A stretch of DNA of 64,000 nt from Terriglobus albidus (GTDB lineage Bacteria > Acidobacteriota > Terriglobia > Terriglobales > Acidobacteriaceae). The position numbers were made by a program, and so were the translations under genes. This document shows positions 3,385-43,246 of the stretch, in pieces. The DNA lies in the NCBI RefSeq assembly GCF_008000815.1, contig NZ_CP042806.1, positions 1,054,001 through 1,118,000 of the forward strand, in the 5' to 3' direction. The notes beneath the pieces were generated by a model. That model saw only the letters and a program-made list of their open reading frames with translations. It did not search any database and had not been told where the DNA came from. Numbering within the stretch: the stretch's first letter is position 1; every line of letters starts with the position of its first letter.

Positions 3385-4440
3385 ATGTCTTCGGAGAAGA
3401 TTACTGTCAGCGCTGAAGACATTGATTTGGCTGTGCATGTCTCGGCGCCTGCCGAAATTCCGGCCAAAAAGCAGCCTTCTCCTATTCCCGTCTGGGCCAA
3501 GGCGTGTCTGTGGCTTCTGGTTCCGGTTCTTCCTCTTCTGTGCGTGATCTCGGTCATTCTGCGGATTGCGTTTCGCACGCAGCCGCCGCGGACACGGTAT
3601 GCCCTGGTCTCTCTGCTGGCAACGCTGCTGACGGTAAGCAGTCTGCTGGCGCTGGTCGCAGGGGTAGCGATCTATTCGCTTGTTCCTTTGCCGCCGATGG
3701 TGAACTCTGGTCTGCCCGATCTTGACCAGCGGACTGGCTTCCCCTCGCTGTCTTCGGCTGTAACTCTTTCCAGTGCCGAGGTATCCACTCAGTTGAAGCC
3801 GCTGGTGGTTGTGGTATCGCCGGCCGTTCGGTTCTGGGGACGGGAGGCAGCTTCTGTGGGACTGGGGGCGGGTATGCTGCTCGAGGCAGGACCCGATGGC
3901 TATCTTTTTGCCACGGCCAATCATGTCGTCAGCGGAACGGCCTCGCCCGCCGGTGGAAGCGCTCCGCATGTGATGGTTGCCATGGAAGGTGGGCTCTGGT
4001 CAAAGGCCGACGTGATCGCCACCTGTCCCTCGAACGATATGGCGCTGCTCTGGGTCGAGCGGCACTCCGGCGCTGCAGCTTTCGTGCAGCCTATCGGCAA
4101 GCCGCAGGACGGCGAGCCGATCTTCGTGATCGGTCACCCGGAGGGATTGAAGTACACGCTTAGCAGCGGCATCATCTCCGGCCTGCATCAGGACGTGCTG
4201 CAGATCTCGGCGGCCATCAGTCCGGGTAACAGTGGCGGGCCGGTCTATGACGCGCACGGTGCGCTGCTGGGAGTTGTCAGCTCAAAGTTTGACCGCAACA
4301 ACGATGCCAATGCGGAGAATCTCGGTTTTGCCAACAGTGCCGAGCTGCTGCACAATCCGTCGCTTTGGTCGTTTTATGGAAATGGCCGTCAGAGGCTGGA
4401 ACAGTATTTGAAGGATCTACAGACAAAACAACAGATGTAG
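3385..4440 (+). CDS. membrane-anchored trypsin-like serine protease (S1C/HtrA-like)
   Basis: The 351-residue protein begins with a polar N-terminus, then two hydrophobic segments (about residues 36-62 and 72-100), then a trypsin-fold protease domain. The catalytic triad is readable as H180 (ATANH), D218 (SNDMALL) and S283 (SPGNSGGP). No PDZ domain follows, unlike DegP. It is the first gene of the cluster encoding a ubiquitin-like protein, E1, E2, JAMM protease and RING-like protein, 26 bp before the ubiquitin-like gene. With two membrane segments the protease domain would be on the same side as the N-terminus, probably the cytoplasm, where it could act on tagged proteins. That role is inference. 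Confidence 0.82.
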   Translation: MSSEKITVSAEDIDLAVHVSAPAEIPAKKQPSPIPVWAKACLWLLVPVLPLLCVISVILRIAFRTQPPRTRYALVSLLATLLTVSSLLALVAGVAIYSLVPLPPMVNSGLPDLDQRTGFPSLSSAVTLSSAEVSTQLKPLVVVVSPAVRFWGREAASVGLGAGMLLEAGPDGYLFATANHVVSGTASPAGGSAPHVMVAMEGGLWSKADVIATCPSNDMALLWVERHSGAAAFVQPIGKPQDGEPIFVIGHPEGLKYTLSSGIISGLHQDVLQISAAISPGNSGGPVYDAHGALLGVVSSKFDRNNDANAENLGFANSAELLHNPSLWSFYGNGRQRLEQYLKDLQTKQQM

Positions 4441-4466
4441 TTGAAGAACCTTCCGGGAAGGATGCG

Positions 4467-4736
4467 ATGCCTTACATCAACGTCACCGTCTACGATTCGA
4501 CGGAAAACAAACGCGTTCCAGCTGAGTTACCTGATGATGCTCCGTGCAGCAAGATCGTGACGGTGCTGGTGCAGAAGCTCCAGCTTCCGACCAATGGGCC
4601 GGACGGCGCGCCGCTGAGTTACAAGTTTCATCACAAGAACAGTGGCCGCCAGATCCAGGACAGCCAGACATTGGCCCAGGCCGGTGTGAACGAAGGCGAC
4701 ATCCTGCGGCTGCAGCCGGAGATCACCGCAGGCTGA
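4467..4736 (+). CDS. ubiquitin-like protein (YukD/EsaB-like fold) ending in Ala-Gly
   Basis: The 89-residue protein fits a beta-grasp pattern: a first strand INVTVYDS, a loop with PDDAPCSKIVTVLVQKL matching the ubiquitin helix, YKFHHKNSGRQI, and a final strand GDILRLQPE. It ends EITAG, so a C-terminal glycine is exposed without processing, as expected for a substrate of an E1. The start ATG at 4467 is chosen because GGAAGG lies 5 nt upstream; the longer open frame overlaps the preceding gene. The stop is 5 bp before the E1 start. Bacterial YukD/EsaB proteins have the same fold but usually lack the terminal glycine and an E1 partner; here the E1, E2 and JAMM neighbours argue for a true conjugated modifier. 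Confidence 0.85.
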   Translation: MPYINVTVYDSTENKRVPAELPDDAPCSKIVTVLVQKLQLPTNGPDGAPLSYKFHHKNSGRQIQDSQTLAQAGVNEGDILRLQPEITAG

Positions 4737-4741
4737 ACGCC

Positions 4742-5962
4742 ATGACCGAGACCCTCACCTTACGTACAGAGCTGGAGGAGGACCGGTTCAGCCGCTTCCG
4801 CCTTATCCCCTGGTGGGATCAGGCGAAGATCCAGTCCGCGCGTGTGCTGGTGATCGGTGCAGGCGCGCTCGGGAATGAGATCCTCAAGAACCTGGCCCTG
4901 CTCGGCTTCCTCAATATTGTCATCGTCGATCTCGACTCGATTGAGACCTCGAACCTGTCGCGGTCGGTGCTCTTCCGTGCGTCCGACGTCGGCAGCGCTA
5001 AGGCCGATGCGGCTGCGCGTGGTTATGGCAACCTGCTGCCTGAGGCGACCGTTCTCCCTCTGGCGGCGAATGTGATGCAGGATTGCGGCCTCGGCCTCTT
5101 CGCGTGGGCTGACCTGATCATTGCGGGGCTCGACAATCGCGAGGCCCGCCTCTGGATTAATCGCGCAGCATGGAAGGTCGGCCGACCCTGGATCGATGGC
5201 GCGATCGAGGGCATCAACGGTGTTGCCCGCGTCTTTCTGCCCAACCAGCCGCCTTGCTACGAGTGCACGCTTGGCGAGACCGATTGGGCGATCCTGAACC
5301 GTAGGATGTCCTGCAACCTCCTGCTCCACGAGGCTCAGCCGCAGGGACGTGTGCCGACGACACCGACTATCTCCTCTGTGATTGCGGGCATTCAGGTGCA
5401 GGAACTGGTCAAGGTGCTCCACGGTCTGCCGACGCTTGCCGGCAAGGGGTACGTCTTTGAAGGGCTGCAGCATACCTCTTACGTGACCCAGTACACCGAG
5501 AATCCGGACTGCATGAGTCATGCATCGCTGGAGAACATTGTGGAGCTGGGTGAGAGCTCCAGCGAGATCACCCTGGCGGAGTTGATGCGGCGCGGGCAGG
5601 AGCATCTCGGTGTCAGCGAAACGGTGATTGAGTTCAGCCGGGATATTATCTGGCGCCTGCGCTGTCCTCGTTGCGGCGCGATTGACGATCTCTTTGCTCC
5701 GGTGGGTTCGGTGGACTTCAACCGTGGCCGCTGTCTCGCTTGCAGCCCCGATAGTGCTGAGCCGCAGATGCGCATCGTGGATCTGCTTACCGGTTATCGC
5801 GGTGAACCGGAGCTCGCGGGCCGGACGCTCGATCAGCTTGGCCTTCCGCTCTTTGATGTGTTCACGGTGCGTTCGAACGACTCGGAAGTTAACTATCTGA
5901 TAGCAGGCGATGCCGCGGAGGTTCTTGGTCCGCTGGTGCGGGAGAAGGAGTTTGCCGTATGA
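4742..5962 (+). CDS. E1-like ubiquitin-activating enzyme (ThiF/MoeB fold)
   Basis: The 406-residue protein has a Rossmann-type adenylation domain: nucleotide loop GAGALG at 39-44, DLDSIETSNLSR at 63-74 (the canonical E1 acidic and Asn/Arg signature), DNREAR at 131-136, and PTTPTISS at 205-212. CYEC (172-175) followed by C191 in RRMSC resembles the catalytic-cysteine segment of eukaryotic UBA3-type E1s, so C191 is the candidate thioester residue. A second cysteine set, CPRC at 308-311 and CLAC at 331-334, forms a zinc-ribbon-like C-terminal region. The ATG at 4742 fits the alignment to the E1 family. The last codons overlap the JAMM gene start in an ATGA, so translation is probably coupled. 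It should adenylate and thioester-link the ubiquitin-like protein encoded just upstream. Confidence 0.88.
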   Translation: MTETLTLRTELEEDRFSRFRLIPWWDQAKIQSARVLVIGAGALGNEILKNLALLGFLNIVIVDLDSIETSNLSRSVLFRASDVGSAKADAAARGYGNLLPEATVLPLAANVMQDCGLGLFAWADLIIAGLDNREARLWINRAAWKVGRPWIDGAIEGINGVARVFLPNQPPCYECTLGETDWAILNRRMSCNLLLHEAQPQGRVPTTPTISSVIAGIQVQELVKVLHGLPTLAGKGYVFEGLQHTSYVTQYTENPDCMSHASLENIVELGESSSEITLAELMRRGQEHLGVSETVIEFSRDIIWRLRCPRCGAIDDLFAPVGSVDFNRGRCLACSPDSAEPQMRIVDLLTGYRGEPELAGRTLDQLGLPLFDVFTVRSNDSEVNYLIAGDAAEVLGPLVREKEFAV

Positions 5963-6849
5963 GCAAGAACACCGCTGCGGTTGAGCCAAAGATCGTGATC
6001 GATAGCGAGGTCACGCGCTGCATCCGTCAGCATGCCCGCGCGCATATGAAGACTGAGGTCTGCGGCGTGCTTATCGGCGAGAAGGTGGGAGACGCTGTCC
6101 AGATCCGCGCCTCCATCGAAGCCTCGCAGGCCAGCCAGGGAGGCACGCACGTCACCTTTACCCAGGAGGCCTGGGAGGAGATCTACCGCGTTAAGGACGT
6201 GCGTTATCCGGAGGAACGTATCGTCGGCTGGTATCACTCTCATCCGGGCTTCGGTGTCTTTCTCTCTGAGCACGATCTGTTTATCCAGCAGAACTTCTTC
6301 AACGCTCCCGATCAGGTGGCCTGGGTCTATGACCCTCACACGGACGAAGAGGGCTGCTTCGGCTGGGTGGGTGGTGCGGTTCATCGCATTCACTCGCTGA
6401 CCATCTCTGACCAGAACGGCGACGGTGTGGAACGCACACCGAAGCCGACTGAAATGCAGGTGACGGAAGAAGAGAGTGTCTCGCAGCCGGTTATGCGTGC
6501 AGAGGTTCGGCAGAAGACGCCGGAGTGGATGCGATGGGCGGCCACGGGAATGCTGAGCCTGACCATGTTGGTGGCCGGCTTCGCGGTGTCGTATTTCCTC
6601 TTCCCGCAGATCATTCCCTTTGCGGTCTTTATCGATCCGACTTCAGGCAGGCCGCTGGGAATCCGTGAGGCTCCGGAGCTGTTGCCCTTCCTGCACAAAG
6701 CATTGCTTGCACCGGAATCGTCGGCAGTGCCGACGGGACAGAGTCCGGCTCTTACTGCACCTGCACCTGCGCCTGGTGCTTCGACGGCAGCTCCGCCGCA
6801 GGCGCCTGCCTCGTCCACACCTGCGCCAGCCACTGGGAGGAAGCCATGA
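5959..6849 (+). CDS. membrane-anchored JAMM/MPN+ isopeptidase (deubiquitinase-like)
   Basis: The N-terminal domain of this 296-residue protein is a JAB1/MPN metalloprotease with all ligands: E33 (TEVCGVL), H93 and H95 in HSHP, S103 and D106 in the signature HSHP-x6-SxxD, as in CSN5. A hydrophobic segment follows at about 192-216, then a Pro/Ala-rich tail of about 50 residues. It would remove the ubiquitin-like protein from conjugates at the membrane. The gene overlaps both its neighbours by ATGA junctions, pointing to one transcript with E1 and the FHA gene. A role in cysteine or molybdopterin-type sulfur transfer is less likely because an E2 and a RING-like protein are also present. Confidence 0.87.
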   Translation: MSKNTAAVEPKIVIDSEVTRCIRQHARAHMKTEVCGVLIGEKVGDAVQIRASIEASQASQGGTHVTFTQEAWEEIYRVKDVRYPEERIVGWYHSHPGFGVFLSEHDLFIQQNFFNAPDQVAWVYDPHTDEEGCFGWVGGAVHRIHSLTISDQNGDGVERTPKPTEMQVTEEESVSQPVMRAEVRQKTPEWMRWAATGMLSLTMLVAGFAVSYFLFPQIIPFAVFIDPTSGRPLGIREAPELLPFLHKALLAPESSAVPTGQSPALTAPAPAPGASTAAPPQAPASSTPAPATGRKP

Positions 6850-7898
6850 GCGAACAGCCTGACGACGTGTTGCGTGTTTCGCTGGAAGACCTGGAGACAG
6901 TGCAGGCTGCGCCGCTCGCGGTGGCCTCAACCGAGACTACGGCGGGAGTGAAGAGCTACGGCAGCATCCATGAGCCGGCCGAGCCGGAGGCTCTGGCGAA
7001 AGAGGACGGAAACTTCTTTCTGAAGGCGTGGGTGTATCTGGGAATTGCCGGGTTGGTCGGAGCCCTGGCGGGCTGGGGCATTGCGGAACCCGGCTTTGTA
7101 GATGGTGCTGGCTATCGCTGGGGAAATATCTGGCTCATTCCCATCATCCTGACGCTGATGTGCGTCGGCTTCGGTGCAGCCGAGAGCATCGTAGAGCGCT
7201 CGTTGCGCAAAGCTGCCATCCGGATTGGAATCGCGCTGCCCCTGGGCGTGGTGATGAGCTTCATCTCCGACCGCATTGCCAACATGATTTATGCGATTGG
7301 GCTGGGCTTTTCCGCGGCTGCCGGTGTGCAGACCCACCATAACCCTGTTATCTGGATTGTGCGCGCGATCGCATGGGCATGCCTGGGCGCGGCCGGTGGC
7401 ATCATCTACGGGATTATCGACCGGTCCGGTAAGAAGATCGGCTATGGAGCCCTTGGCGGCGCGATCGGTGCGGCGATTGGCGGCCTGATCTTTGATCCCA
7501 TCTCGTTTGCAACCAAGGGAGGTGCGCCGAGCCGCGCCGTCGGCTTTGCGCTGCTGGGACTTGCCACCGGTGTTGCGATGGGGCTGGTGGAAAGCGCGCT
7601 GAAAGACCGCTGGCTCTATGTCACCTCCGGTCCGCTGGCCGGCAAGCAATTCATTCTCTATAAGCCGCAGACAGTGATTGGAAGCACGCAGACCTGCGAT
7701 ATCTATCTCTTCAAAGATCCCGAGATTTTGCCGCGGCATGCTGTGCTGATGCAGAAGGGGCCGCATATTCATCTCGCCGCCGAAGGAACGGTCTATGTCT
7801 CCGGTCAACCGGTGCGCGGCACGCGGGTACTGGAGAGTGGAGCCATCGTTCAGTTGGGCCGCTATAAGTTCAGGTATCAGGAAAGGACACGCGAATGA
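6846..7898 (+). CDS. polytopic membrane protein with C-terminal FHA domain
   Basis: The 350-residue protein has a polar N-terminus (about 55 residues), then about six or seven hydrophobic segments rich in Gly and Ala between residues 56 and 255, several with glycine-zipper spacing (GALGGAIGAAIGG). The C-terminal part (about 270-345) fits an FHA domain: TVIGSTQTCDIYL, LPRHAVL and a final strand region GAIVQLGRYKFRY. FHA domains bind phosphothreonine peptides, so this protein could recruit phosphorylated partners to the conjugation machinery. It starts in ATGA overlap with the JAMM gene and ends in ATGA overlap with the RING-like gene. No kinase gene was seen in the window. Confidence 0.8.
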   Translation: MSEQPDDVLRVSLEDLETVQAAPLAVASTETTAGVKSYGSIHEPAEPEALAKEDGNFFLKAWVYLGIAGLVGALAGWGIAEPGFVDGAGYRWGNIWLIPIILTLMCVGFGAAESIVERSLRKAAIRIGIALPLGVVMSFISDRIANMIYAIGLGFSAAAGVQTHHNPVIWIVRAIAWACLGAAGGIIYGIIDRSGKKIGYGALGGAIGAAIGGLIFDPISFATKGGAPSRAVGFALLGLATGVAMGLVESALKDRWLYVTSGPLAGKQFILYKPQTVIGSTQTCDIYLFKDPEILPRHAVLMQKGPHIHLAAEGTVYVSGQPVRGTRVLESGAIVQLGRYKFRYQERTRE

Positions 7899-8479
7899 CC
7901 TCCGCCTGTCCCTACTGTCGTTGTGGTTTTGAGCCGGAGGAAGAGGCGCTGACCTGCGAAGCCTGTGCTACGCCGCACCACGCTGACTGCTATGCGGAGA
8001 ACGGTGGCTGCACCGTCTTCGGCTGCGCCAAGGCTCCCGCAGATGAGCCAAAGGTGAGCATCTCGTCGGCGGACTTGAGCCAGGCACGGCCGGCAGTGGC
8101 TGCGGCCCCGCCACCGCCGAATCCTGCGCTGACCACGTCCGTGGCTCCGCCTCCTCGGCCGCCCGGTGCGCCACCCAGGATTCAGGTCACCGAGCCTGCG
8201 CCGGAGCGAGGGTTGAGCTTTGGCGGTTATAGCGCAGTATCCCATGCGCCAATCGCGCCGTATACGCGCCGTCGCACCCGCACGAATTATGTGTTGCTGG
8301 GAGTCTTTCTCGGGGGCCTGGGAGTACATAACTTCTACGCGGGCTATACGAAGCGCGCTGTGGGACAAATGCTGCTGACGTTGCTGTCGTTTTTCTTTCT
8401 TGGCTGGGCCGCCTGGATCTGGGCCTTAGTGGAAGTTTGCATCGTCAAGCAGGACGGCGATGGAGTGCCACTTCTTTGA
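7895..8479 (+). CDS. prokaryotic RING-finger protein with TM2 membrane domain (candidate E3 ligase)
   Basis: The first 44 residues of this 194-residue protein form a binuclear treble-clef pattern: C5-x2-C8, C21-x2-C24, H29-x2-C32 and C39-x4-C44, with the ENGGC segment common in the prokaryotic RING family. A Pro/Ala-rich linker (about 50-105) leads to a TM2 domain with two membrane helices (VLLGVFLGGLGVHNFYAG and a second segment near 155-185). RING domains in this setting are predicted to bind E2 enzymes, and an E2 gene lies at the end of the same cluster. The protein is therefore the best candidate for a membrane-bound ligase or E2 adaptor. Ligase activity is inference. Confidence 0.8.
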   Translation: MTSACPYCRCGFEPEEEALTCEACATPHHADCYAENGGCTVFGCAKAPADEPKVSISSADLSQARPAVAAAPPPPNPALTTSVAPPPRPPGAPPRIQVTEPAPERGLSFGGYSAVSHAPIAPYTRRRTRTNYVLLGVFLGGLGVHNFYAGYTKRAVGQMLLTLLSFFFLGWAAWIWALVEVCIVKQDGDGVPLL

Positions 8480-8514
8480 TGTAAGACGATTTCTTTTCTG
8501 ATTGGAGCTGCCTT

Positions 8515-9156
8515 GTGAACTACACCATCTTTCGTGACGGACAACAGTACGGTCCGTATACTCTCGCCGATCTACAACGCTATGTCGCCTCGGGCGATGT
8601 GCTGCTTACCGACCTGGCTTCCAGTGAAGGCATGGGGGAGCCGGTGCCGGTCTCGCAGATCGTCGGCACCATTCCAGTTCCGCTACAGGCCGCCGCTCCA
8701 TCGGCTCCGGCGATCGAGTATCCCAACCCGCCGAATCTTCATTGGGGCCTGGTGCTTCTGTTCACTATCCTGACCTGGGGAATGTTCATGTCGGTCTGGG
8801 GCGTTGTGCTGTCCTTCTGGCTCAAGAAGGTGGCCCCGTCCAGTCGGGCACTCTACTTCTACATCGCGGAACTGGGCTGCCTGGCGCTGGTATTTGCGCT
8901 TGGCATGGCTTCTGTCGTCGCGCATGGCGCCACCACATTGATACCGATCGTCCAGTTGGCCAGCTTCGTGTTGACGTTGATTGCGCGCTACAGCTTCCGT
9001 TCCTCGATGGAAGAGCACTACAACAATGTTGAAGGCATTCCGCTGACGTTGAGCGGCGTGATGACCTTCTTCTTCAGCACCATCTACTTCCAGTACCACG
9101 TCAATGACATTGTCCGGCGCAAGCGGGTTGAGCAGCTTCAACTCGTCACCGGCTAG
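8515..9156 (+). CDS. GYF_2-domain (DUF4339) membrane protein
   Basis: The N-terminal 55 residues have the GYF_2 pattern: YTIFRDGQQYGPYTLADLQ, then GDVLLTDLA and a GMGEPVPV segment. After a short Pro/Ala linker come about four hydrophobic segments between residues 78 and 195. GYF-type domains usually bind proline-rich peptides, and the JAMM and RING proteins of this cluster both carry proline-rich stretches, which would give a simple way to assemble the complex. Start is GTG at 8515 with GGAG 10 nt upstream. The gap to the preceding gene is 35 bp, so it probably shares the transcript. Confidence 0.72.
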   Translation: MNYTIFRDGQQYGPYTLADLQRYVASGDVLLTDLASSEGMGEPVPVSQIVGTIPVPLQAAAPSAPAIEYPNPPNLHWGLVLLFTILTWGMFMSVWGVVLSFWLKKVAPSSRALYFYIAELGCLALVFALGMASVVAHGATTLIPIVQLASFVLTLIARYSFRSSMEEHYNNVEGIPLTLSGVMTFFFSTIYFQYHVNDIVRRKRVEQLQLVTG

Positions 9157-9180
9157 TGTCTAAAGCTCTTGTCAAAATGT

Positions 9181-9303
9181 TGTCATCCTGAACGAACGGG
9201 GTCCCGGCCAGCTTTGCTGGCTGGGGTGGTGAAGTGAAGGACCTGCTTTTCCAAAGCTTCGGATGGCACAAGCCCTTCATGATTTATGTTGCGAACTTTA
9301 GGT
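9181..9303. repeat. dispersed intergenic repeat, copy 2, inside the ubiquitin-like cluster
   Basis: This is the reverse complement of the repeat at 459-545, with an added GGCCAGCTTTGCTGGC hairpin. It separates the GYF_2 gene from the E2 gene by 171 bp, so the E2 gene may have its own promoter or be expressed at a different level. Confidence 0.6.
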
Positions 9304-9327
9304 TCATCATTCTAAAGAGGAACTCCG

Positions 9328-9891
9328 ATGGCATCGCCGCGCACCCGCAGACTGAAGCTCGATCATGAGACGCTGACCCGCCGCTTTGCCGGCTGGCCGG
9401 TGATCCAGATTACCGGCAGCGCCGGCCTGCCGCCGGAAATCTATCAGTTCCAGTTCAACCTGAAAGGCATCTACGTCAACGCCGCCGGCGAGATTCTGGA
9501 ACGCGATACTCATGTTTTGGAAGTGCAGTTATCGCTCGAGTATCCCCGCCGCGCTCCACAATGCCGCATGCTGACGCCAGTCTTCCATCCAAACTTCGAC
9601 GAGACCAGCGTCTGCATCGGCGACTTCTGGGCGGCGTCAGAGGGCCTGGATGACTTAGTGGTGCGCATCGGACGCATGATCGCCTATCAGGAGTACAACA
9701 CCCGCAGCCCATTGAACGGCCTCGCCGCTAAATGGGCTGCGGAGCATCTTTCACTGCTGCCTATTGATAGCCGCACGGTAGCGCCGCCTTTGGAAGAAAC
9801 TGTTGTGGGGAAGAACGATATAGAAGCGGCTGCTCCAGCCGCGCTAGAAACTCCGGGTGATCCATGGAGTGAAAAGCTACATGTGACATAG
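9328..9891 (+). CDS. E2-like ubiquitin-conjugating enzyme (UBC fold)
   Basis: The 187-residue protein keeps the E2 core: YPRRAPQC matching the conserved YP-x-x-P segment, HPN at 87-89, the active-site cysteine C96 in VCIGDFW, and SPLNGLAAKWA (127-137) matching the eukaryotic DPLN-x-x-AA helix. About 45 extra residues of low complexity follow the domain. It would take the ubiquitin-like protein from the E1 and pass it to targets, with the RING-like protein as partner. GAGGAACTCCG precedes the ATG at 9328. The retention of both HPN and Cys argues against an inactive UEV-type variant. Confidence 0.87.
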   Translation: MASPRTRRLKLDHETLTRRFAGWPVIQITGSAGLPPEIYQFQFNLKGIYVNAAGEILERDTHVLEVQLSLEYPRRAPQCRMLTPVFHPNFDETSVCIGDFWAASEGLDDLVVRIGRMIAYQEYNTRSPLNGLAAKWAAEHLSLLPIDSRTVAPPLEETVVGKNDIEAAAPAALETPGDPWSEKLHVT

Positions 9892-10068
9892 GATGTTCGT
9901 TCGTCCGTTGCTGCATCTGGATAGCGGCGGAACGCTTTAAAGCCTATAGCTCGTCTTGTTGGAACTGTCGAACGGTGTCTTTTTGACAGTTTGAGTGAGA
10001 AGAAAACTAGTACTATTTCCACTCTACTATGGGTTTGAGTTTCACTTTGATGTCATTATGATTGCAAA
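9892..10068. promoter_or_regulatory. control region of the IetAS-like operon
   Basis: An inverted repeat AACTGTC (9963-9969) / GACAGTT (9985-9991) overlaps a consensus -35 box TTGACA (9983-9988). A clear -10 box at the right spacing was not found. The ribbon-helix-helix protein encoded next could bind this repeat and repress its own operon; that is inference. Confidence 0.35.
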
Positions 10069-10278
10069 ATGATGCATAAACCTAAACGCATGACCGCGAA
10101 CAAAAGAAAGGGTTTATTGCGGGTTGCCGTTACACTTCGACTTCCTGAGGATGTCGTCCGGCGTATTGATCAAGAACTGAATGGGCGGGACATTCCTGTA
10201 TCAAGAAATAATTGGTTTCTCGAGGCCGTGATCGAGAAGCTCCGCCGAAATGGATCTGGAGAACAACATGGCGCGTAG
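10069..10278 (+). CDS. small ribbon-helix-helix-like protein
   Basis: The 69-residue basic protein has a beta-strand LLRVAVTLRLPEDVVRRID followed by a second helix region SRNNWFLEAVIEKL, matching the ribbon-helix-helix (CopG/Arc-like) layout. Its last codons overlap the start of the AAA ATPase gene by 11 bp, so it belongs to the same operon and may be an autoregulator or an antitoxin-like partner of the ATPase/protease pair. Codon use is more AT-rich than in the upstream cluster. Confidence 0.65.
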   Translation: MMHKPKRMTANKRKGLLRVAVTLRLPEDVVRRIDQELNGRDIPVSRNNWFLEAVIEKLRRNGSGEQHGA

Positions 10279-11320
10279 CGACCTTCTTGTTTCTCTCGTG
10301 AAGGCGGGTACCTGCGGTGACAGCCGCGGTTTCAGGTCGGCGGCAGAAGCGATCATTGCTGAGGAACGTGCAAAGCAACACGGCGTTTTGGCAGATCGAC
10401 TAACAAAAGCCATTCAAGTCAATGGCACCGGAAATATTGTGCGAGCTAATTTCCAAACAATCAGTTCATCGGATCCGCACTATCGTGGTAAGGACTTCAT
10501 ATCCGAGGTTGTTCCAAGGCGTCGTCTTGATGATCTAATTCTTCCGTTACTGGCTAGGCAAAACGTGCTGGAGCTGATCGAAGAACAGCAAAGAGCAGAT
10601 CTATTGCGAGCACATGGCCTTGAACCGAGAAATCGAATCCTATTGGTGGGGCCTCCGGGAACAGGTAAGACGACTCTTGCTGAAGCAATTGCAGAAGCTG
10701 TCTCCGTGCCTCTATTCGTGGTCCGTTATGAAGCAATGATTGGAAGCTATTTGGGAGAAACGGCTTCACGTCTAAAAAGGGTTGTTGACTATGCGAAGAC
10801 AACTCCTTGCGTACTCTTTTTCGACGAATTTGACGCAATCGGAAAGGAAAGAGGAGATATCCACGAAACCGGAGAGATTAAGCGGGTTGTTAGCACATTG
10901 CTTATGCAGATTGATGACCTACCAAGTTATGCAATGGTTGCCGCAGCAACCAACCATCCTGAATTGCTTGATCGAGCGGCATGGAGACGTTTTCAGGTTC
11001 GTGTGCAATTGGAGCTGCCAACCCGAAATGATTTGGCAAAATATCTCGAGAATTTTCTTATTCAGTTTCGTGAGTCAGCCGGCATTTCTGCAGCGACTTT
11101 AGCAAAAGCGTTAGGACACATAAGCTATGCTGACGCAGAACAATTCTGTCTCGATGTGAGACGCAGGCAAGTTCTGGCAGCAGGCGAACGTAGCCTGAAA
11201 CAGATAGTGGCAGATCAGTTGAGGATCTGGACCGCGAAGTCACGAGCTCAGCAGCCAAAGCCAAAGGAGAAAGAGGATGCCGACGCGACCTCTGCTTCCA
11301 CTTCCCACACCGAACCATGA
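10268..11320 (+). CDS. ietA: AAA+ ATPase, IetA-like (ATPase of ATPase/subtilase defence pair)
   Basis: The 350-residue protein has one AAA module: Walker A GPPGTGKTT at 128-136, Walker B LFFDEFDAI with D186 and E187, a sensor-1 segment AATNHPELLD and an arginine-finger-like AWRRF. An N-terminal region of about 125 residues precedes it. The start at 10268 is chosen over 10250 because of the CTGGAG ribosome-binding site 7 nt upstream. The next gene, overlapping by 44 bp, encodes a subtilase. This ATPase plus subtilisin-like protease pairing is the IetAS arrangement, first described as a plasmid incompatibility locus in Agrobacterium and later reported as an anti-phage system. AT-richer than surrounding genes, consistent with transfer. 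Confidence 0.78.
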   Translation: MARSDLLVSLVKAGTCGDSRGFRSAAEAIIAEERAKQHGVLADRLTKAIQVNGTGNIVRANFQTISSSDPHYRGKDFISEVVPRRRLDDLILPLLARQNVLELIEEQQRADLLRAHGLEPRNRILLVGPPGTGKTTLAEAIAEAVSVPLFVVRYEAMIGSYLGETASRLKRVVDYAKTTPCVLFFDEFDAIGKERGDIHETGEIKRVVSTLLMQIDDLPSYAMVAAATNHPELLDRAAWRRFQVRVQLELPTRNDLAKYLENFLIQFRESAGISAATLAKALGHISYADAEQFCLDVRRRQVLAAGERSLKQIVADQLRIWTAKSRAQQPKPKEKEDADATSASTSHTEP

Positions 11321-13874
11321 ACCTCCTCCGCCTGGACATTCAGGGTATACACCTCTACGGCTTCCCTCAAGGGATCGTCAGAGAGAGTACTTCGGCCCAA
11401 CATTCGAGCGGCTGAGGCGGGCAATTACAGATAACACAGGAGAGGCCGCGCAGATTTTTGATGATGCGAATAATCTCGCTCCTGAGAGGGTTCTCGTATT
11501 CGAGACAGCGGGACCGGTACAAAATTTTCTTAAAGCCATAGCTAAGGTCCCCGGGTTCCAATTCATGGGCGACTTTGAATCAGAATTTGAAGCGGACGAG
11601 AACTTTGCCGTAATAGATCAGAGAAAAGGTCGCGGCGGTGCGGATCGGACCGATGAGCCAATTGCAAGCCGCTATTACCTAACAATGCCGAATCTGGCGG
11701 CGTTATCTCAACTCTTGAGTCTTTGGGACCGCTGGAGAAGGCAGGAGCAAATGGCAGAGGGCTTTGCCCCTTTCGCCGATCTCTTCAACCGACTTCACGA
11801 TCTCCGACCCTGGGGGCCAACGGATCGTGTCTCTCCTGAAGCTATATCTATTTGGCGAGAAGAGATCGTTTCAAATCCACGGCGTCCAGTTCGAATCGAG
11901 ATTGAACTGTGGTTTAAGGAGGCCCGAGGAGACCGCGAGGCGGCTTCGAGTGACGTCACTGCTTTAATTACGCAAGCAGAAGGTCGCATCCTTCAGGAGA
12001 TTATCGTAGAGGAGATCGCTTATCACGGGATGCTAGTCGAGCTTCCTGTGGGGGAAATTGAGAACCTCATTGCACACCGAAACGTTGCTCTCGCAATCGA
12101 CGATGACGTAATGTTTCTCCGCCCTCAAAGTGTTTTACAGGGGCCCTTTGAGATGGAAGCATCGACCTTTGAAGAGGAGGGCGAACGTATCGTTGATACC
12201 CGCATTGGGAATCCGGTTGCTGCCCTATTCGATGGAGTGCCGATGCAGGCACACAGACTGCTTGCTAATCGTCTGGTCATTGACGACCCGTACGATTTAG
12301 AAGGTCGGGCTGTAGTCGCCCATCGCAGACATGGTACCGCCATGGCGTCTCTGGTGTTGCACGGGGACCTCAATGCAGGCGATGAATCGCTGTCCCGTCG
12401 ACTCTATGTGCTCCCATTACTTTCTTCGTCGAATGGAGAATCTGAGCACTCTGACCCTGACCGGCTTCTAATTGATCTGATCCATTCGGCCGTTGTTCGA
12501 ATGAAAGGGCAAAATGGGACAGAGGGGAGTGCCCCAAATGTATTTCTGGTTAACCTTTCTCTCGGCGATCCCAAACGGCCTTTTTCGCGGTTGATGAGTC
12601 CTTTGGCTAGGCTTCTCGACTATCTATCGTACAGATACAATCTGTTATTTTTTGTAAGCGGTGGAAATGTGACGGCCCCGCTTGCTATCGCAGATTTCGA
12701 CACCTGGACTGATCTAGAAACCGCATCTCCCGAGGAGCGAGAAAAAAGTTTCATTCGAGCGCTCAACACCGCGAAGCGTGAAAGAACAATTTTGTCTCCA
12801 GCAGAAGCGCTCAATGCCATTACTGTCGGTGCCCAACATCATGACGATGTTCCGAACAGACCACGCACTATCAATACGGTTGATCCATTCCGATCGAACA
12901 CACTGCCAAATGTGAGCTCGGGACTTGGTCTCGGCCACCGCCGAATGATAAAGCCGGAAATCTATTTACCCGGAGGCAGGGAGTACGTCCGGATGAGAAG
13001 CTCGGGAGGGGGAGTAACTATTTCAATAGGCCCTCCAGGACGATTGTATGGATTGAGCGCCGCAGTGCCTGACGATGCGGGACAAGGACGCTTGAATCAG
13101 GTAGCCCTAAGTGATGGAACTAGTTCTGCCACAGCACTTGCCACCAGGGCAGGACATCAAATATTCGACGGATTGATGGATGCCGAAGGGGGATCTTTAC
13201 TGTCGGACATCCCTCCACGATATTATGCCGTGGTTACCAAGGCTCTACTAATCCATAGTGCGGAATGGCACGAGAGCGCGTCTCTAATCAAAGAGATCTG
13301 CGGCCCTGCGGGTCAATATCAGCATGCTGAAAGAACGGAAAATTCGTGCAGATTCGTCGGCTTCGGAATACCAGACATAATAAAAGTCCTGGATTGCGAG
13401 CCGAATCAGGCGACACTTGCAGGCTATGGCGAAATTAGAACTGAGCAGTCGGTTGTGTATCGAATCCCGTTACCGGAGAGTCTGGAACGAGTCACAGCAC
13501 CTAGAAGCCTCTCCATCACTGTCGCATGGCTTTCACCAGTTAAGCCGAAACATCAAGCCTATCGCTGCGTTCGGCTAGAAGCCGAGCCCGTTACTAAGTC
13601 AATCGAATCTTTTGGGGTAAGAAGAAAAAAAACACAACCCACTGATGGTTCTGTCCGCAAGGGGAGCGTCTTTCACGAGCACTATGAAGGTGCTGCGGCA
13701 ATCCCTTTCATTGATGATGGCCACTTGCTTTTGAGAGTGTGGTGTAAAGATGACGCCGGTATTTCAGCCGAGGTGGCGATTCAGTATGGAATAGCAATCA
13801 CGATTCAGGCTGAAGGCGCATTACCGATATATCAGGAGGTCCAGCAACGCCTCAGGGTACAGCCAATTCCATAG
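11277..13874 (+). CDS. ietS: subtilisin-like serine protease (S8), IetS-like
   Basis: The 865-residue protein has an N-terminal region of about 300 residues, then an S8 domain with D319 (FDGVP), H352 (RRHGTAMAS), the oxyanion N464 (SGGN) and S616 (GTSSATA). A beta-rich C-terminal domain of about 180 residues follows. There is no signal peptide, so the protease is cytoplasmic, as expected for an abortive-infection type effector controlled by its AAA partner. The start codon overlaps the ATPase gene. It ends 53 bp before a convergent HEPN gene. Functional assignment to IetAS rests on domain pairing and length. Confidence 0.8.
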   Translation: MPTRPLLPLPTPNHEPPPPGHSGYTPLRLPSRDRQREYFGPTFERLRRAITDNTGEAAQIFDDANNLAPERVLVFETAGPVQNFLKAIAKVPGFQFMGDFESEFEADENFAVIDQRKGRGGADRTDEPIASRYYLTMPNLAALSQLLSLWDRWRRQEQMAEGFAPFADLFNRLHDLRPWGPTDRVSPEAISIWREEIVSNPRRPVRIEIELWFKEARGDREAASSDVTALITQAEGRILQEIIVEEIAYHGMLVELPVGEIENLIAHRNVALAIDDDVMFLRPQSVLQGPFEMEASTFEEEGERIVDTRIGNPVAALFDGVPMQAHRLLANRLVIDDPYDLEGRAVVAHRRHGTAMASLVLHGDLNAGDESLSRRLYVLPLLSSSNGESEHSDPDRLLIDLIHSAVVRMKGQNGTEGSAPNVFLVNLSLGDPKRPFSRLMSPLARLLDYLSYRYNLLFFVSGGNVTAPLAIADFDTWTDLETASPEEREKSFIRALNTAKRERTILSPAEALNAITVGAQHHDDVPNRPRTINTVDPFRSNTLPNVSSGLGLGHRRMIKPEIYLPGGREYVRMRSSGGGVTISIGPPGRLYGLSAAVPDDAGQGRLNQVALSDGTSSATALATRAGHQIFDGLMDAEGGSLLSDIPPRYYAVVTKALLIHSAEWHESASLIKEICGPAGQYQHAERTENSCRFVGFGIPDIIKVLDCEPNQATLAGYGEIRTEQSVVYRIPLPESLERVTAPRSLSITVAWLSPVKPKHQAYRCVRLEAEPVTKSIESFGVRRKKTQPTDGSVRKGSVFHEHYEGAAAIPFIDDGHLLLRVWCKDDAGISAEVAIQYGIAITIQAEGALPIYQEVQQRLRVQPIP

Positions 13875-13927: not shown

Positions 13928-14839
13928 CTAGAATTCCTCCGATAGCGGTTCCTTAGGAGGGAGCTTGGCAATGAGATCGTTCAGTTCGCAGGAGTATTCG
14001 GCAACGATCTTTTTGAGTGCCAAAATTTTAGCTAAGTTCCAAGACCCTTCAGCTCCATCGCTCGTTCTCCCATTGCGATGAACGATGTCGTGACGGTCCC
14101 GGATCGCGGTCTTCAATCCCTCTGGAGTGACTGGAAATACCACTCCGAAGGCGCGTTTGTACATCATCGAGGATTCATCGAGACGATGCCAATTATGGGC
14201 AAGTACAAAATTGCGCACCTCGGCATCAATCTTTTTGAATCGCTCGAAAATGTCGCTGAGCTTGATTGGAGTGTTCTGGAAATGGGCGGTCTTTCGAACG
14301 AAATTCTCCGTGTATTCGTCGCTTTTCGAAAGTGTCTTTATGAATAGGTCACCGAGAAATGTTTCCAGAGCTGCAATGATATTGGCGTACAAAAGCTTGT
14401 GCAGGATTCTTCGGTCCTTCTCAAAAACCTCTATCCTTGCCGCATCCTCGATTTCAACAAGGCTGGATATCAAATTAATGTAAGGATCAGGTCCGCTCTC
14501 TAGCAGGTCTAGAAAGTAATCGTCATCTGGCGGCTCTGGCTTCCCCGACCATTCCAAACTTATGTCATTGAGATCGGATGCCAACTCTTCTATAACCTCA
14601 TCCGCAACTATCCCACCAAACTCAGTCTGCAGTTGCTCTTCTGCGTCATAAGGACCGCCCCAAATCCATTGGTAACCTCCCTCGGCAGAGTCGTACGGAA
14701 GCTCATCAGGAGATTCGAAATTATCCTCGAACCAATCGCGCATCGCCTCGATTTGCAATTCCTGCCTTTTTCGTTTGAGTTGGGCTCTTGTGATGTTTTT
14801 ACCCGTGCTGGGAATGAGATACCGCAGTGGACGCAACAT
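13928..14839 (-). CDS. HEPN-domain protein (RiboL-PSP-HEPN-like)
   Basis: The C-terminal half of this 303-residue protein is a helical domain with an ALETFLGDLFI helix and the HEPN nuclease signature R-x4-6-H in RDRHDIVHRN (R247 or R249, H254). The N-terminal 110 residues are acidic, with the pattern YQWIWGGPYDAEEQ seen in a family of HEPN-associated proteins. HEPN proteins of this type are often RNases in toxin or defence systems. It converges with the subtilase gene and shares its AT-rich composition. Target and partner are unknown; no antitoxin gene is adjacent. Confidence 0.65.
   Translation of the reverse strand: MLRPLRYLIPSTGKNITRAQLKRKRQELQIEAMRDWFEDNFESPDELPYDSAEGGYQWIWGGPYDAEEQLQTEFGGIVADEVIEELASDLNDISLEWSGKPEPPDDDYFLDLLESGPDPYINLISSLVEIEDAARIEVFEKDRRILHKLLYANIIAALETFLGDLFIKTLSKSDEYTENFVRKTAHFQNTPIKLSDIFERFKKIDAEVRNFVLAHNWHRLDESSMMYKRAFGVVFPVTPEGLKTAIRDRHDIVHRNGRTSDGAEGSWNLAKILALKKIVAEYSCELNDLIAKLPPKEPLSEEF

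Positions 14840-39055: not shown

Positions 39056-43246
<4,191 letters not shown>

Follow-up and report, generated by a model that had tools for sequence, protein, structure and literature searches.

A conserved eight-gene operon encoding a candidate membrane-anchored ubiquitin-like conjugation pathway in Acidobacteriota and Verrucomicrobiota

Gene content and conservation of the operon

The window analysed in this work, a stretch of 64,000 nucleotides from Terriglobus albidus contig NZ_CP042806.1, carries an operon whose products probably form a membrane-anchored ubiquitin-like conjugation pathway, as judged from their domains and conserved residues. The locus lies in a single-contig 6.4-Mb genome whose closest named relatives are Acidobacteriaceae. 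A first-pass annotation had placed eight same-strand genes at 3385-9891, and all eight open reading frames were indeed found there on the + strand. Their content matches the set that had been proposed, namely an E1, an E2, a ubiquitin-like protein (Ubl), a JAB peptidase and a RING protein together with protease, FHA and GYF_2 partners. According to Pfam, the gene order is trypsin-like protease, Ubl, E1, JAB, FHA, RING-TM2, GYF_2 and E2, as follows.

3385..4440, + strand: trypsin-like (HtrA/DegS-type) membrane protease with a transmembrane (TM) hairpin; Pfam Trypsin_2 1.2e-19; triad H180/D218/S283
4467..4736, + strand: YukD-type ubiquitin-like modifier (Ubl), 89 residues, ending in QPEITAG; Pfam YukD 2.3e-14
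4742..5962, + strand: E1 activating enzyme, ThiF fold, Cys191; Pfam ThiF 1.4e-49
5959..6849, + strand: JAMM/JAB peptidase, one TM segment, tail rich in Pro and Ala; Pfam JAB 3.8e-17
6846..7898, + strand: polytopic membrane protein with a C-terminal degenerate FHA/YscD-like domain; Pfam Yop-YscD_cpl 2.1e-10, FHA 1.1e-5
7895..8479, + strand: presumed E3 with N-terminal Prok-RING_1, Pro-rich linker and TM2; Pfam 1.4e-8, TM2 6.8e-11
8515..9156, + strand: GYF_2 domain and about three TM segments; Pfam GYF_2 1.9e-6
9328..9891, + strand: E2 conjugating enzyme, HPN 87-89, Cys96; Pfam UQ_con 1.4e-8

The Ubl starts at ATG 4467 and the E1 at ATG 4742, and the three ATGA overlaps described previously are real (at 5959, 6846 and 7895). 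Hydropathy together with the Pfam TM2 match predicts TM modules in five of the eight products.

Searching 84,980 species genomes with the E2 alignment yielded 36 loci, which is a lower bound because candidates had to fit one of two short peptide patterns. These loci (numbered L, and their genomes G, below) belong mostly to Acidobacteriota, with others in Verrucomicrobiota (L056, L072, L075, L079) and one in a KSB1 bin, L078, where the E2 was the only operon gene found on its contig. Thirty loci run from the protease to the E2: 26 of the 36, the window, L039, L088 and L089, the end gene itself being cut in L059, L063 and L080; the locus counts exclude G012 with its cut contigs as well as the distant clusters of G007, G124 and G206. 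All 30, from Acidobacteriota and three Verrucomicrobiota, show the same order and strand from first to last gene, and 27 of them have all eight genes. The protease, FHA and GYF_2 genes, previously presented as fixed members, are thus conserved neighbours of the core in 27 of the 30 loci, but with exceptions for the protease (see below) and for GYF: in L072 and L075 the GYF domain lies inside the RING gene, and L056 has none. Ten truncated loci keep the same order over their extent, L079 having no GYF between RING and E2, and hits indicate extra GYF genes in L071, L074, L076 and L077.

The ratio of non-synonymous to synonymous substitution rates (dN/dS) against the nearest relative (96% in E2) was 0 to 0.145 for the eight genes, lowest for the Ubl (0) and the E2 (0.054), in keeping with purifying selection. 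Taken with the recurrence of order and strand in 30 loci, this is more than chance would produce. Against four more distant loci, for which synonymous sites are near or at saturation, the computable ratios were 0.02 to 0.35 and highest for GYF. In a tree built on five proteins of 26 loci the three Verrucomicrobiota cluster together, two nodes being weak, and L059, labelled Bryobacterales, is placed among Acidobacteriaceae. The E2 was present in 7 of 101 related genomes, its own counted (G012 being a contig-end fragment and G007 a different cluster at 32%), and close Ubl relatives were present in 3 of 396 genomes of the phylum, again counting its own, besides two distant ones. The module is a patchy but stable accessory system.

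Conserved chemistry of the E1, E2 and JAB proteins

The catalytic residues named in the first-pass annotation are conserved throughout, counting alignment rows that have a residue at the position. The E1 nucleotide-binding motif GAGALG (G39-G44) and C191 occur without exception in a 29-row alignment, as do H87, P88, N89 and C96 of the E2 in a 38-row alignment, and no cluster in these alignments lacks the catalytic cysteine of either enzyme. In the 30-row JAB alignment E33, H93, H95, S103 and D106 are all invariant, S94 too, which gives the JAMM deubiquitinase motif E-HxH-x7-S-x2-D. With its UQ_con domain, UBE2B match and invariant HPN and cysteine, the E2 appears to be of eukaryote type.

Searches against PDB sequences pointed in the same direction. 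The best match of the E1 profile was UBA3 (1.2e-39, with bacterial Cap2 at 5.6e-12), that of the E2 profile UBE2B/RAD6 (4.5e-13, positions 1-143) and that of the JAB profile RPN11 (5.1e-12). Since the PDB is rich in eukaryotic enzymes, these matches indicate eukaryote-like sequence and not descent. The predicted E1 structure (mean pLDDT, the predicted local distance difference test, 86.9) also had UBA3 as its top Foldseek match (6.6e-23). Its adenylation domain matches ThiF/MoeB (TMt about 0.87) and its C-terminal part contains beta-grasp-like elements, the UBA3 alignment covering most of the chain at a root-mean-square deviation above 10 Å; on this model, the C-terminal domain may be a ubiquitin-fold domain.

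The Ubl and its C-terminal tails

The Ubl diversifies hardly at all across loci. Its identity to the window copy is 76-100% in 27 other rows, and 53 of its 89 residues do not vary across the 28 rows, among them K15, K37, K53, K57 and the C-terminal QPEITAG. The C-terminal glycine noted in the first reading of the sequence, Gly89, is invariant in all 28. We compared 31 Ubl copies, that of the window and 30 from a motif search of the fetched loci (27, L043 of G012, L088 and L089). In 19 of the 31 the protein stops at Gly89, and in 12 it continues for 1-6 further residues that mostly differ from copy to copy (AR three times, A twice, SW, AQWNR, CR, SMRVGR, AWAF, AAREN and GQ). Because this search used QPEITAG itself, the invariance of the glycine rests on the 28 rows found by homology. 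An invariant glycine followed by variable, dispensable tails resembles the precursors of ubiquitin-like proteins, and these tails are the best sequence evidence that Gly89 would be the reactive end and the JAB protein the processing enzyme. Distant Ubls encoded beside an E2 in L086 and L087 end in AG-SFQC and AG-GC.

Membrane partners

Hydropathy predicts membrane segments in most copies of the remaining proteins. For the JAB protein one TM was called in 28 of 30 rows and for the RING protein, several of whose rows are cut, one or two in 24 of 33; the GYF protein has two or three in 32 of 35 rows, the FHA protein 3-6 (32 rows) and the protease two in 24 of 28. The scan is noisy, calling one TM also in the E1 (8 of 29 rows) and the E2 (2 of 38).

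TM helices are a described feature of bacterial members of the Prok-RING_1 family in Pfam. The product annotated beforehand as "RING-like" does have this finger, and we add that the same protein carries a TM2 membrane module. The eight presumed zinc ligands of the finger are found in every locus but L054, which the contig start truncates (32 of 33), and the predicted RING domain, with pLDDT 87-97 in blocks of ten, is in the model a cross-brace finger. The membrane module behind it is exchanged between loci, being TM2 in the window and L079, CD225 in L056 and L072, and DUF805-like (below cut-off) in L075. The genes joining RING to CD225, the interferon-induced transmembrane protein family, lie at 5147-5671 of L056 (2.1e-15) and 9120-9785 of L072 (1.1e-25). 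In L072 and L075 GYF_2 sits between RING and the membrane module, and this fusion ties GYF_2 to the RING protein. Where the two are separate, the RING linker in many cases contains runs of proline, a plausible GYF_2 ligand.

FHA domains that read phosphothreonine share a consensus of GR, S and N contact residues. In the FHA protein of the operon, G279 and H298 are present in 32 of 32 rows, R at position 280 is found in only 4 of 32, and the consensus Ser and Asn are not at their places. Thus the FHA/Yop-YscD_cpl domain announced by the first-pass annotation is there, but the phosphothreonine-reading residues are lost, and the domain is probably a YscD-like binding or assembly domain.

The membrane trypsin-like protease, whose nearest families are HtrA/DegS, stands as annotated in the window but not in every locus. 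The L056 protein is still recognized as Trypsin_2 (7e-9) with all three triad positions replaced and no GxSGG left, and the L075 gene encodes the TM hairpin only, the protease domain being gone; GxSGG is present in the other 26 of 28 rows, and these retain the triad as well, H180 being unread in two cut rows. From the decay in L056 and L075, the TM hairpin, and not the activity, is the constant part of this protein. Charge counts favour cytoplasmic JAB and FHA domains and a periplasmic protease; a RING ligase role would need the cytoplasmic side.

Proposed mechanism

The pathway that we infer from this gene set, including the membrane sides, the binding of GYF to RING and the role of the protease, might operate as follows. 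The YukD-type Ubl would be produced either mature or as a short precursor, which the JAB peptidase would trim to Gly89; the same peptidase would later strip the Ubl off its targets. The E1 would adenylate Gly89 and then hold the Ubl as a thioester on Cys191, from which it would pass to Cys96 of the E2. Anchored in the inner membrane by TM2 (or by the CD225 or DUF805-like module), the RING protein might steer transfer to lysines of membrane or near-membrane proteins. GYF_2, probably through the proline-rich linker of RING, and the polytopic FHA-like protein would serve as scaffold helpers, and the trypsin-like protease, probably periplasmic, could be an optional output, cleaving or removing envelope proteins that carry the tag.

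Several observations weigh against such a pathway or parts of it. The Ubl profile matched only polyubiquitins in the PDB, through summed repeats, and no single stretch passes. For the RING domain, Foldseek returned PHD and RING-H2 fingers at probability 0.99 with E values of 0.08-0.2, none below 0.001; as both folds are matched about equally, the protein is no more than a putative E3. The longest proline run of the linker was reached in fewer than 5% of shuffles in just 10 of 28 loci with a separate GYF, this being a weak test. The charge rule is contradictory for GYF topology, and the loop between the RING TM segments falls outside the count. A protease that lacks its triad (L056) or is absent (L075) can perform no essential step there. 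Moreover, the consulted part of PMC1779556 reports no conjugation of Bacillus YukD. We nevertheless consider conjugation at a membrane the probable function of the operon. The fuller picture, an inner-membrane ubiquitin pathway with a processed YukD tag, an exchangeable RING anchor, envelope targets and an optional periplasmic protease, working in the manner of endoplasmic-reticulum-associated degradation (ERAD) or as immune surveillance, is speculative, and we would not expect it to hold in all its parts.

Comparison with known systems

Burroughs, Iyer and Aravind reportedly proposed, in the abstract of their 2011 paper, a conjugation of YukD-like Ubls. The first-pass annotation was right that the core E1/E2/Ub/JAMM/RING grouping had already been predicted: the available portion of a 2014 review (PMC4197634) credits it to Burroughs et al. 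2011 and places operons akin to the archaeal ubiquitin cluster in Actinobacteria, Planctomycetes and Acidobacteria. With the core predicted in 2011, the novelty is smaller than that annotation implied. The Burroughs-type bacterial Ubl operon has Prok-RING_1 and adjacent E1, E2, JAB and Ubl genes in common with the window. The operon of Caldiarchaeum subterraneum consists of five genes, Ub, E1, E2, RING and an adjoining Rpn11-like peptidase (accessible parts of PMC4197634 and PMC11354881), whereas the window has a YukD-type Ubl and membrane-bound RING, JAB, FHA, GYF_2 and protease products.

Among systems with related enzymes, Bil (BilABCD) resembles the window in having Ubl, E2, JAB and E1 within one operon. 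As described in the consulted sections of PMC11354881, BilA has two Ubl domains, BilB a CEHH motif and BilD two adenylation domains, while the window has a single 89-residue Ubl, an HPN-type E2, one adenylation domain and extra membrane genes. Membership of the Bil family was rejected on the single-domain Ubl and on HPN-C in place of CEHH; the window E2 had no PADLOC match at E 0.01. Type II CBASS (cyclic-oligonucleotide-based anti-phage signalling system) with Cap2/Cap3 likewise combines E1/E2-type conjugation with a JAB protein, and the PADLOC E1-E2 and JAB models match weakly, but the E1, E2 and Ubl of the window are separate genes. This assignment was rejected too, no CD-NTase being found among ten window proteins scanned (the eight and the neighbouring IetA and IetS). 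The Ubl shares its family with YukD/EsaB of type VII secretion, and YukD is placed with secretion genes in the available text of a 2006 paper (PMC1779556); the same ten proteins include no secretion ATPase or WXG100 gene product, which sets type VII secretion aside. Ubl conjugation also figures in FtsH ternary systems (PMC7159879, eLife 2020), where the accessible part of the article describes no module of the window type.

A literature search over titles and abstract starts found no operon with trypsin, FHA and GYF_2 members, Burroughs 2011 standing outside that negative. What the present comparison adds is the fixed order in two phyla, the Ubl tails, the decay of the FHA domain, the dispensable protease, the RING-GYF fusions and the exchange of the RING anchor. 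The operon would make testable both the bacterial conjugation of YukD-like Ubls and a full E1-E2-E3-deubiquitinase chain bound to a bacterial membrane. It is a compact set with a conserved residue for each step, and it is present in the type strain Edaphobacter aggregans DSM 19364 (L046). Since its E1, E2 and JAB match eukaryotic enzymes best, in a PDB rich in those, it also bears on the origin of eukaryotic ubiquitin.

Genomic context

The flanks of the slot that holds the operon in the window, alkB and beyond on the left and an M20 peptidase on the right, are conserved in G008, whose slot has no operon and holds one 934-residue protein without a Pfam or PADLOC match. In G015 the slot contains the operon with TIR (PADLOC 5.1e-126) and Argonaute (3e-205) proteins, and in the window it contains an IS110-like gene, the operon, IetAS and a weak HEPN protein. 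Known defence genes thus occupy the slot in two of three comparable genomes, and as its contents differ the slot is variable. G006 and G004 have alkB, but the stretch fetched from them contains neither the operon nor a partner on the right. The features concerned are listed below.

1891-2979 of the window: IS110-type transposase (by eye), with alkB on one side and the operon on the other; unmatched in the G015 slot
10069-13874 of the window: small ribbon-helix-helix-like open reading frame (by eye), then the anti-phage pair IetA and IetS (PADLOC 3.4e-145 and 3.5e-288)
13928-14839 of the window, - strand: weak HEPN matches (5.1e-5, below the Pfam cut-off), just past IetAS
10625-13541 of L045 (G015 contig): TIR-domain protein and short Argonaute, directly after the Ubl operon

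IetAS was considered as part of the operon and rejected, since IetS occurs in 1 of 19 genomes of the genus (its own) and no IetA or IetS hit was obtained in the other loci, which hold at most about 10 kb past the E2. A phage or plasmid origin also finds no support beyond one plasmid E2 at 32% identity: the Ubl was not found in viral contigs nor the E2 in phage records, and the plasmid gene, annotated as a ubiquitin-conjugating enzyme, lies at 40587-41045 of NC_019754.1, a Crinalium plasmid predicted to be mobilizable.

Possible physiological roles

A role as an accessory stress or defence system has, in our estimate, nearly even chances. In its anti-phage form, similar to Bil or CBASS, the Ubl would be attached, in the course of infection, to a protein of the phage or the host, and the membrane components would execute or contain the response, a reading that is credible although we lean somewhat against it. 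The defence genes sharing the slot in the window and in the sister genome G015, the matching flanks without an operon in G008 and the patchiness of Ubl relatives in the phylum are in its favour. In raw counts, ResIII is matched by three of 109 flank proteins from other loci and methyltransferase or Argonaute models by single ones, and a PDC-S24 (Fic-like) gene lies near the L046 operon. However, of the 126 Pfam families in the flanks, the 25 listed are mostly metabolic, peptidase or regulatory, and PADLOC at 1e-10 gave for the 109 proteins 58 families, many of them overlapping, each with at most two matching proteins. A given flank family is seen in 4 of the 36 loci at most, and flanks are shared within close lineages. 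This sharing and the Verrucomicrobiota group in the tree make the module look stable and not fast-moving, the Ubl hardly diversifies, and the searches of viral contigs and phage records, with the single plasmid E2, weigh against the anti-phage reading as well.

The main alternative role, envelope protein quality control, would rely on tagging at the inner membrane in the logic of ER-associated degradation, with the HtrA-like protease as output. Five membrane proteins, a protease of HtrA/DegS type and charges that favour its outside location agree with it, but the module is too rare in the phylum for general housekeeping, the protease is lost or lacks its triad in two loci, and the eight conserved products include no unfoldase or proteasome-like gene; we consider this role rather unlikely. 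Still less probable, and indeed very doubtful, is that the Ubl has a structural role in some membrane or secretion complex, like YukD/EsaB, with the E1 and E2 acting elsewhere. Its assignment to YukD by profile, the FHA domain being nearest to type III YscD_cpl and a distant E1-Ubl-E2-JAB cluster near a type VI gene in G007 would suit such a role. The invariant glycine with its tails and the full E1/E2/JAB set are hard to account for on these terms, and there is no secretion ATPase among the eight conserved products. Membrane-anchored conjugation remains our preferred account of the operon.

Distant clusters

Three more distant clusters were encountered. At 8669-10003 of L086 (G124) there are Ubl, E2 and JAB genes with no adjacent E1. 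At 447-3848 of L087, a 4.3-kb contig of G206, Ubl, E2 and E1 genes accompany one whose product shows, by eye, stretches resembling FHA and a cysteine-rich finger. In G007, a genome of the same genus, L042 encodes at 7942-10728 a DnaJ-domain protein, an E1, a Ubl with a GG-LR end, an E2 and a JAB protein. A type VI secretion gene (T6SS_VasE, 1.3e-33) is found about 1.5 kb away from this last set, and a link between a Ubl system and type VI secretion would deserve a study of its own.

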